This document shows, in pieces, positions 47,757 through 49,984 of a stretch of 64,000 nt of DNA. The notes under the pieces were generated by a model. That model saw only the letters and a list, made by a program, of their open reading frames with translations, did not search any database and was not told the DNA's origin. Within the stretch, counting starts at the first letter, position 1; each line of letters opens with the position of its first letter. The stretch spans positions 1 to 64,000 of the forward strand of contig WHTT01000023.1 in assembly GCA_009377605.1 (NCBI GenBank), given 5' to 3'. This DNA comes from Luteitalea sp. Its GTDB lineage: Bacteria; Acidobacteriota; Vicinamibacteria; Vicinamibacterales; Vicinamibacteraceae. The position numbers and the translations under genes are program-made.

Positions 47757-48530
47757 ATGCGTCTCGCTGACAAGATCGCTATCGTGACGGGCGCTGGCAG
47801 CGGGATCGGCCGCGCCATCGCGACCCGCTTCGGGCGGGAGGGTGCGCGGGTGACAGTGGTCGATCGGAGTCGCGAACGCGTTGACGAGGTCGTTGCCGCC
47901 ATTCAGCACGCGGGTGGCGAGGCACTGGCAGCCGTTGCCGACGTAACCGTAGACGCGGAGGTCGGCCGCTTCGTGAAGGCGACGACCGAGGCAGCTGGCC
48001 GTCTCGACGTGCTCGTGAACTGCGCCGGGGTGACGGCATTCGGGACGGTCGCGGACAGTCCGGCCAGCGAGCTCGACCGGGTGCTGGCCATCAACCTGCG
48101 AAGCATTTGGACCGTCTCGCAGGCTTGCATCCCACACTTGCGCCGCTCCGGCGGCTCGATTGTCAACATGGCGTCAATCACGGGCGTTGTCGGCGCGCCC
48201 GGCATGGCGGCGTACGCCACGTCGAAGGGAGCCGTTATCACACTGACGCGCACGCTCGCGCTGGAGGTCGCTGAGGCCGCCATTCGCGTGAACTGTATCT
48301 GTCCCGCCTCGATCGACACACCGATGCTCCAGGCGTCCTTCGAACGTCAGGCCGATCCAAGCGCTGCCCGAGCGCGCAATGTCAAGCGGCACCCGCTCGG
48401 ACGGCTCGGCACGCCAGAGGATGTTGCCAACCTGGCGTTGTTTCTCGCCTCGGACGAAGCCAGCTTCATCACTGGTGGCACCTACGTCATCGATGGTGGC
48501 GCGTTGCTCGCGCGGCGCTGGCAGGACTAG
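47757..48530 (+). CDS. Short-chain dehydrogenase/reductase
   Basis: 257 residues of the classical SDR type. NAD(P)-binding TGAGSGIG at residues about 11-18, Asp after the second strand (VVDRSRERV) favouring NAD, the NAG-like NCAGVTAFG, the catalytic Ser in MASITG and Tyr/Lys in YATSKGAV, and a C-terminal GGTYVIDGGALL. In this locus it probably oxidises a free sugar (such as a deoxy- or ordinary aldose) or a uronate derivative at C1 or C4; the substrate is inferred only. Its stop codon TAG at 48528-48530 lies exactly on the end of the MITE at 48527, so the element is at the gene border. Confidence 0.9.
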   Translation: MRLADKIAIVTGAGSGIGRAIATRFGREGARVTVVDRSRERVDEVVAAIQHAGGEALAAVADVTVDAEVGRFVKATTEAAGRLDVLVNCAGVTAFGTVADSPASELDRVLAINLRSIWTVSQACIPHLRRSGGSIVNMASITGVVGAPGMAAYATSKGAVITLTRTLALEVAEAAIRVNCICPASIDTPMLQASFERQADPSAARARNVKRHPLGRLGTPEDVANLALFLASDEASFITGGTYVIDGGALLARRWQD

Positions 48531-48692
48531 TGGGCTGTATCAGTCATTTGTGAAGTGGCTTGCGGAGCGCGGCGCCCGGCTGGCCAGGCGCGAGGAGGGA
48601 GCATACAGGCGGTATATGACCGACGAGCAACGCAGCCAGGCGGGATGCCCCGCCCGCAAGGCACTTTACAAATGACTGATACAGCCCACTAG
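48527..48692 (+). mobile_element. 166-bp MITE with about 37-bp terminal inverted repeats
   Basis: Left end CTAGTGGGCTGTATCAGTCA and right end TGACTGATACAGCCCACTAG are perfect inverses, and similarity continues to about 37 bases with one or two mismatches (TTTGTGAAGTGGCTTGCGG against TTTGTAAAGTGCCTTGCGG). The internal sequence carries no transposase. CTAG appears at both borders. The left border overlaps the SDR stop codon. The ends resemble a DDE-type transposon terminus, so it is a likely non-autonomous element mobilised by a transposase elsewhere. Confidence 0.9.
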
Positions 48693-48730
48693 CCGTGCAC
48701 GATCCGACCAGGCCAACGGCGTCGCGTCCG

Positions 48731-49984
48731 ATGCTGAGGATCCCCCATCTGCGATGGGGGATCCTCGGCCTCCTGTTCCTGTCGACGGTCATCAACTATA
48801 TCGATCGTCAGGCGCTGTCGGTGCTTGCCCGCACAATCCAAGACGAGCTCGGCATGGACGACGTCGCGTATGCGAGGGTTGTGCAAGCCTTTCTGCTGGC
48901 GTACACCCTGTCATATCTCGTGTCAGGGCGCATCACGGACTGGTTGGGGACGCGCACCAGCATGGCGGCGTTCATCACCTGGTGGTCGCTCGCGAACGTG
49001 GCCACAGCATTTGCAACCTCTGCGTTCACGCTCGGCTTGTATCGATTTCTGTTGGGGGTGGGAGAGCCGGGGAACTACACGGTCGGACCAAAGGCCATCG
49101 CCGAATGGTTTCAGCCTCGCGAGCGCGGCCTGGCGTACGGCATCTACACGATGGGCGCGACCGTCGGCGCCACCCTGGCACCGCCGCTGATTGCGTGGGT
49201 CGCGGTGTCGCTCGGCTGGCGTGCGGCCTTCGTGATTACCGGTGCTCTCGGCCTGATATGGATCCTGCCCTGGCTATGGCTGTATCGCGCGCCCTATCAG
49301 CATCCGCGCCTCACTGAAGCGGAGCGACTTGTCGTGCCAGCGCCGGACCCGGTCCGCGCTCAGGCGCCCATATCCGAATGGGCTCGGTGGCGACCGCTCC
49401 TGTTGCAGCGAGATACCTGGCTGCTGCTCGCCAGTCGTGTCTTGACGGATCCGGTGTGGTACTTCTATTTGTTCTGGTTTCCAAAGTACCTGACCGACGC
49501 GCGCGGGCTCTCGCTCGTCCAGCTTGGGCAGGTCGCGTGGGTCGTGTACCTGGCGGCCGATCTCGGCTCCGTTGGTGGCGGCTGGCTCTCGGGCCGTTTC
49601 ATTGCGCGCGGCGCTGCACCCATTGCCGCACGAAAGGCCGTGCTCCGTGTTGCTGCGGTGCTCGTCCTGATAGGACCGTCGGTGGCCTTTGCTCCCTCGA
49701 TTCCTCTCGCGCTCGCCGCTGCGTGCTGCGTCGCGTTCGCGCATCTCGCCTGGCAGGCTACGATCGGCGCGCTCATCGTGGATCGGTACCCGCAGGCTTC
49801 GCTGGCGACGACCTTCGGCATCATCGCGGCGGGTAGCGGCTTCGGCGGCATGGTTTCAACGGGAATCGTCGGCTACCTCGTCACGACGTATTCGTACACA
49901 CCCGTGTTCGTCGGGATGGCGGCGCTGCATCCGCTGGCGTTGTTGCTCGTGTGGCGCGTGCGAGCCGGTCGCCATGACAGGTAG
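48731..49984 (+). CDS. MFS transporter, hexuronate/anion:cation symporter (ACS) type
   Basis: About 418 residues from ATG 48731; a GTG at 48695 is possible but lies just 2 bases after the MITE. Twelve hydrophobic helices. Diagnostic segments are FLSTVINYIDRQALSVLA after helix 1 (the INYxDR motif of ExuT-like ACS carriers), the loop LVSGRITDWLGTRTSMAAFI and LLGVGEPGNYTVGPKAIAEW. These suggest symport of an acidic sugar such as galacturonate, glucuronate or galactonate; the exact substrate is not readable. Between SDR and enolase-superfamily genes in the sugar locus. A perfect 14-bp hairpin begins five bases after the A of ATG, possibly affecting initiation. Confidence 0.9.
   Translation: MLRIPHLRWGILGLLFLSTVINYIDRQALSVLARTIQDELGMDDVAYARVVQAFLLAYTLSYLVSGRITDWLGTRTSMAAFITWWSLANVATAFATSAFTLGLYRFLLGVGEPGNYTVGPKAIAEWFQPRERGLAYGIYTMGATVGATLAPPLIAWVAVSLGWRAAFVITGALGLIWILPWLWLYRAPYQHPRLTEAERLVVPAPDPVRAQAPISEWARWRPLLLQRDTWLLLASRVLTDPVWYFYLFWFPKYLTDARGLSLVQLGQVAWVVYLAADLGSVGGGWLSGRFIARGAAPIAARKAVLRVAAVLVLIGPSVAFAPSIPLALAAACCVAFAHLAWQATIGALIVDRYPQASLATTFGIIAAGSGFGGMVSTGIVGYLVTTYSYTPVFVGMAALHPLALLLVWRVRAGRHDR
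48736..48766 (+). repeat. Perfect 14-bp hairpin at the start of the MFS gene
   Basis: GAGGATCCCCCATC at 48736-48749 and GATGGGGGATCCTC at 48753-48766 around the three-base loop TGC, inside the codons just after ATG 48731. An RNA hairpin this stable over the initiation region would be expected to repress translation. Confidence 0.95.

Follow-up and report, generated by a model that had tools for sequence, protein, structure and literature searches.

A Luteitalea element that probably combines exchangeable insertion-sequence ends with a conserved folded interior

REP and REPIN sequences are palindromes of 20–40 nt, tagged GTAG or CGTC, that go with RAYT transposases and occur at high copy number outside genes. 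Larger palindromic elements have also been described. RUP of Streptococcus pneumoniae is presented as an IS630-type miniature inverted-repeat transposable element (MITE) of 107 bp with one set of ends (PMC2229807), and the same source describes the Correia/NEMIS sequences of Neisseria as related elements of ~107 and 155 bp with TA ends, hairpin transcripts and a proposed effect on neighbouring mRNAs (PMC2229807). The account of the Chunjie MITE of Geobacter uraniireducens gives it a variable size of 178–235 bp and an insertion within an operon (PMC10969869). Classes 1–4 of the “predicted global regulator binding sites” of Geobacter metallireducens have been read as protein-binding, one class resembling sequences in many genomes (PMC2700814). 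Here we analyse a 160-bp non-autonomous element located between an SDR-family dehydrogenase gene and an MFS transporter gene in 64,000 nucleotides of Luteitalea sp. (assembly GCA_009377605.1, contig WHTT01000023.1, positions 1–64,000, forward strand; this whole stretch is referred to below as the window). MITEs are usually viewed as emptied copies of one insertion sequence (IS); here, by contrast, the interior appears conserved and the ends exchangeable, and we consider it likely that the element is a two-module satellite transposon in which exchangeable IS ends surround a conserved folded interior.

The element, its core and its ends

The element has the following features.

48530–48689 (160 bp), + strand, defined as the strand with the G·A-rich fold: non-autonomous element with type A ends, recognised from repeats, copies and folding
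48530–48551, + strand: left terminal inverted repeat, GTGGGCTGTATCAGTCATTTGT, from the sequence and end searches
48668–48689, − strand: right terminal inverted repeat, from the sequence and end searches
48572–48650, + strand: conserved core hairpin (model R1, 104.7 bits), common to elements with different ends
48590–48632, + strand: tip hairpin with opposed tandem GA/GA motifs, whose intervening pairs covary across 60 distinct tips

The inverted repeat, CTAGTGGGCTGTATCAGTCATTTGT, is perfect over 25 bases, of which 22 lie in the element and the remainder is the CTA/TAG flank. An earlier, sequence-only reading of the window had placed the element and its inverted ends correctly but gave the perfect repeat as 20 bases. 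A repeat search recovered the inverted-repeat pair over 64 nt at 81%. Within the window, the 20-base end occurred twice, against 0 occurrences expected from shuffles. The 164-nt stretch folded as a single hairpin, with z = −11.9 for DNA and −13.8 for RNA, a result matched by 0/200 shuffles. Neither the inverted repeat nor the fold is due to chance.

A genome-wide search for the end pattern gave 15 matches, which correspond to seven full copies (the window copy included) and one fragment at a contig end. The full type A copies share 92–100% identity, and all seven are flanked as CTA/GTG..CAC/TAG (slashes mark the element borders), that is, by a TA duplication at a CTAG target with ends starting GTG. 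Among 162 genomes of the order, type A ends were confined to this genome, barring one relict (L125) in genome G071, which we set aside: it is a single end without a paired end, and no transposase was seen with it. Type A ends are alike at 18/26 positions to the type B ends described below, so that IS630, judged by target and ends alone, is likely the partner class of type A.

Many BLAST matches covered only the interior of the element: aligned copies share ~79–94 nt and differ in their outer arms. At E < 1e-6, a covariance model built from 22 cores identified 36 copies of the ~79-nt core in this genome, mostly between other terminal repeats; 39 rows were returned at E ≤ 1. The core was matched in 53/100 genomes comprising this genome and its relatives, and in 13/119 genomes sampled across the phylum. 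A pattern scan of GTDB contigs returned at least 80 loci. Among the GTDB matches listed, the labels were Acidobacteria, Gammaproteobacteria, Deltaproteobacteria, Desulfobacterales, Myxococcales and Elusimicrobia; taxon counts among these loci do not measure prevalence, and most labels belong to metagenome-assembled genomes. The gammaproteobacterial carrier is a 3.1-Mb chromosome with 16 matches. We gave no weight to an Alphaproteobacteria label (L140) as a sign of breadth: over its available length, the element there looks the same as one in a genome of the order (L087), and the contig may be misbinned. Two Desulfobacteraceae loci (L195, L196) hold core elements together with further long inverted repeats (L195 ends GGAACGGGGACGAAATAA), which are possibly another mobile family.

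Distant blastn with the core gave no match in plasmids, E. coli genomes or phages, and an exact-pattern scan of IMG/VR for the core gave 0 matches. Rfam had 0 matches in the window above the gathering score; for 14 other loci it returned one RNase P only, and weak miRNA matches to the core were under the cut-off. To judge from these comparisons, the widely conserved part of the element is its interior and not its ends.

Several types of outer arm can be distinguished, and three of them have a partner IS in the same genome. For type B, the partner is an IS630 in the genome of the window (NF033545, 277 bits; L331) with ends GTGTCCTGACCGCGTGG, which are 22/28 identical to the type B element ends; locus L332 holds a second copy of the left end of this IS630. 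Genome G043 contains an IS1182-like element with ends CTA/GCAGCCCGTGGTGAAA, the same as those of the G043 core elements, and a transposase whose best model is NF033551 at 170 bits, under its 270 cut-off. Genome G162 contains an IS5-like element with ends GGGCGTGTTAACACTA, resembling the element ends GGGCCTGTTAACGCTA, and its transposase best fits NF033580 at 106 bits against a cut-off of 110. The core is therefore common to IS630-, IS5- and IS1182-like ends, which sets the element apart from a MITE derived from a single IS family. A type B element at another locus (L333) lies directly against an IS630 whose ends are GTACATCGTCCGATTAGT, the two having CTAG in common.

The element is a MITE in the general sense, being short and non-coding, with terminal inverted repeats, a target duplication, many copies and an empty site. 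It could be an ordinary IS630 MITE, whose interior is neutral filler dating from an ancient internal deletion in an IS and whose cores are shared through common descent; the terminal inverted repeats, the TA duplication, the multiple copies and the lack of any open reading frame of note would all be accounted for. Nevertheless, we consider this very unlikely. Ends of three transposase families enclose the same core, the tested ISs do not contain it (a scan of 37 IS loci gave one match, which is an adjacent separate element), fold and length are preserved across phyla, and neutral filler would not retain G·A motifs with covarying pairs between them.

Within this genome, type A and type B cores resembled each other as closely across types (mean similarity 0.898) as within them (0.920 and 0.908), whereas type H cores were distinct, at 0.72 to both type A and type B; in this end-typing comparison, both ends were typed alike in only 32/131 tips. 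One element (L083) is a chimera whose ends are IS1182-type on the left and type B (IS630-type) on the right, and another (L088) has type B arms around a type C-like tip. We infer that ends were exchanged through recombination between cores. Symmetric ends after such an exchange would need a second event, for example arm-to-arm copying.

The folded tip

The 80 listed loci gave 60 distinct tips after 20 identical tips were dropped. The scan pattern fixed most tip letters, and only free positions count as evidence. Across the 60 tips, 96.7% of cells in the eleven tip pairs were paired, compared with 79.2% in shuffles (0/500) and 17.9–50.2% when the pairing was slid, and 115 pair cells were changed on both sides, compared with 47.9 in shuffles. 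Five of the eleven pairs were invariant, partly since the scan pattern fixed them. At free positions, Watson-Crick pairs were formed in 57/60, 57/60 and 51/60 tips, and the corresponding shuffle maxima, with G-T allowed, were 43, 47 and 40. Opposed GA/GA motifs sit between the tip pairs; the third motif is GA/GA in 39 tips, GC/AA in 18 and another combination in 3. On the complementary strand TC would face TC, and hence we took the G·A strand as the folding strand. Tandem G·A pairs of this kind would be sheared. Given the covarying pairs and the excess of pairing over shuffles, the tip fold appears to be under selection.

Some tips depart from the common form. Eight of the 84 tips among the GTDB matches listed (L141, L163, L166, L172, L178, L182, L197, L200) have an extra small hairpin in the 3′ core arm, of the CCCCAACGCG..CGCGTTGGGG type and in the same place each time, like an inserted side branch. 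The tips of L283–L289 (G162) have a terminal stem of TTTGG/CCAAA instead of ATA/TAT, with the G·A part largely retained.

We also measured the length of the elements around 144 tips, of which 72 had symmetric TA- or TWA-flanked ends in range, another 58 lacked such ends and the remaining 14 fell at the edge of a locus. A length of 155–160 bp applied to 65/72 symmetric-ended elements, and in nearly all of these the tip was 59–62 bp from the left end, across end types and taxa. In a second form, two tips lie on opposite strands; all four measured elements of this form, from two genomes and with differing ends, were exactly 265 bp. These are L216 (ends GTGTTGTGAGTC) and L283, L285 and L287 in G162 (IS5-like GGGCCTGTT). 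In three of the four, the scan pattern catches one tip, and the other tip is degenerate.

The arms could stay palindromic chiefly through mutation, one arm being copied onto the other by template switching in quasi-palindromes, and not through selection. Consistent with this, type B ends are free to vary at three positions, yet both ends agree in nearly all copies, and the outer arms are near perfect. However, copying of this kind would remove the opposed G·A mismatches, and these persist while the intervening pairs flip from C-G to G-C. We therefore regard this explanation as unlikely overall; arm-to-arm copying is likely true for the arms, but not for the tip.

The tip could also be a double-stranded site for a bending protein (IHF or HU), as proposed for the paired sites of G. 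metallireducens. The multicopy sites described in PMC2700814 are mostly paired, with class 1 on opposite strands and a repeat of GTTGCTYN, and the 265-bp elements likewise carry their tips on opposite strands. By contrast, covariation at paired positions and G·A mismatches are unexpected of a duplex site, and the likeness to the sites in PMC2700814 is one of description, short of an established identity. We consider a bending-protein site highly improbable.

Insertion sites and neighbouring genes

The junction in the window comprises the following features outside the element.

47757–48530, + strand: SDR-family dehydrogenase gene; in its TAG stop (48528–48530), TA also belongs to the target duplication and G to the element
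48528–48529, no strand: left TA copy of the target duplication; the target is CTAG here and TTAG in sister species G001
48690–48691, no strand: right TA copy of the target duplication, from the sequence and the empty site in the sister species
48695–49984, + strand: MFS transporter gene with a GTG start, originally 2 nt past the SDR stop and now ~164 nt

CTAG is present at both borders of the element (48527–48530 and 48689–48692), and the junction reads GACTA/element/TAGCCGTG. The site is empty in sister species G001, in which the SDR gene ends RRWQD TAG and is followed by CC and then by the MFS GTG. The SDR proteins of G001 and the window are 89% identical and have the same C-terminus, RRWQD*. 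The sequence-only reading had proposed a MITE inserted at the SDR stop, with the end of the element supplying the TAG. Recurring ends and the empty site bear out the insertion, but not this origin of the stop, since the uninterrupted gene of G001 already ends with TAG at the same codon. Because the element starts with G and the target YTAG contains the stop, insertion between TA and G regenerated the SDR stop codon, leaving the SDR protein unaltered. The suggestion that the element may carry a promoter is unsupported: we searched it for a promoter-like site and found none. Locally, the insertion parts two closely spaced genes, SDR and MFS, by a strong mRNA hairpin and alters neither the SDR protein nor the MFS start. 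A further inverted repeat of 20 nt, whose arms are 90% complementary and enclose a loop of 3 nt, lies at 48730–48772, within the beginning of the MFS gene.

For counts of position and orientation we used gene calls from a home-made GC-periodicity caller. Insertion at a stop is common in the family: an element end coincided with a called stop in 21/34 clean-ended elements for open reading frames of ≥ 300 nt, or 16/34 for those of ≥ 450 nt. At the same loci, the corresponding numbers were 15/52 or 14/52 for other CTAG sites, and 21/141 or 20/141 for other YTAR sites. The YTAR target is often itself a stop codon, and TAG or TAA is regenerated; stop-codon insertion is therefore a simple outcome.

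The core could instead be a structured RNA that influences adjacent mRNAs in cis, as a processing site, a stabiliser or a terminator-like 3′ end, and be kept for the host genes. Elements are mostly at gene ends, with 29 convergent and 5 divergent gene pairs among 112 classified, and the RNA fold is strong. However, the gene-end location fits the YTAR target, and although a role of this kind calls for the G·A strand to be the sense one, we counted 27 sense and 18 antisense elements between tandem genes, leaving out 40 tips near locus edges. We consider a cis-acting role quite unlikely.

We favour the two-module satellite transposon, for which the copies, the empty site, the matching IS ends, the covariation and the near-fixed length are direct observations. 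Its first module would be the two outermost stretches of ~24 bp, one per side, which a resident cut-and-paste transposase would recognise in trans; in the window copy this module would be of IS630 type, inserting at CTAG/YTAR with duplication of TA and often with regeneration of a target stop codon. The second module would be the near-constant interior of ~112 bp, of which the single G·A-rich strand would fold into a hairpin with stacked tandem G·A motifs. Since the same interior is found between IS630, IS5 and IS1182-like ends, the second module would outlive a change of transposase, the ends being swapped via recombination between cores plus arm-to-arm copying. The fold may serve the spread of the element itself, as a transcript or as single-stranded DNA, and would probably act through protein binding. 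A broader proposal, which we put at somewhat less than an even chance, is that of a cross-phylum mobile structured nucleic acid with a selected single-strand fold (RNA or single-stranded DNA, with stacked tandem sheared G·A pairs) that borrows the ends of active ISs and measures ~160 bp with one tip or 265 bp with two tips on opposite strands.

Several observations weigh against this explanation. No transposase with type A ends was found in this genome or among the 162 genomes of the order. One tip pair is broken in the window copy (C·A). The 58 tips without symmetric ends, alongside the 14 at edges, mean that many copies are decayed or that the end-finder missed them. Lastly, there was no clear transcription bias in the count above, and no replication-strand bias in G043, with 29 leading and 32 lagging elements in a hand count that placed the origin from sparse GC skew. 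The lack of orientation bias fits better with a role for the element itself than with a role for each neighbouring gene.

Comparison with described systems

We found no description of one core between the ends of several IS families in the open-licence literature. A core that carries the ends of unrelated transposons is unusual and may indicate an unrecognised function of the fold, and the stacked tandem G·A fold occurs in several phyla but has no Rfam family. Whether small non-autonomous elements have a selfish structural function becomes a testable question here.

Like REP and REPIN sequences, the elements are palindromic, extragenic and present in high copy. Unlike them, they have a length of 160 bp, true terminal repeats, a target duplication, a CTAG target and DDE-transposase partners, and we rejected membership of this group on the basis of the length, the target and the DDE-type ends. 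Inspection by eye alone showed no R or L box of the kind found in integron attC sites.

The nearest published parallel among those consulted is the set of paired multicopy sites in G. metallireducens. Their class 1 repeat, GTTGCTYN, resembles the complement of the 3′ side of the tip when compared by description; in the relevant account the Geobacter sites are presented without a fold or transposon ends, unlike the elements here (PMC2700814). Chunjie shares the insertion into an operon but, going by its description, is set apart by its variable size (PMC10969869). The Correia/NEMIS elements come close in size, TA ends, hairpin transcripts and proposed effect on mRNAs, but the passages concerned describe neither exchange of ends between IS families nor a tandem G·A tip, unlike here (PMC2229807). 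RUP, as described there, is alike in being non-autonomous and < 200 bp, with a TA target, IS630-like ends and a long stem-loop; the elements described here differ from it in that one core, of near-constant length, is found across phyla with the ends of several transposase families (PMC2229807).
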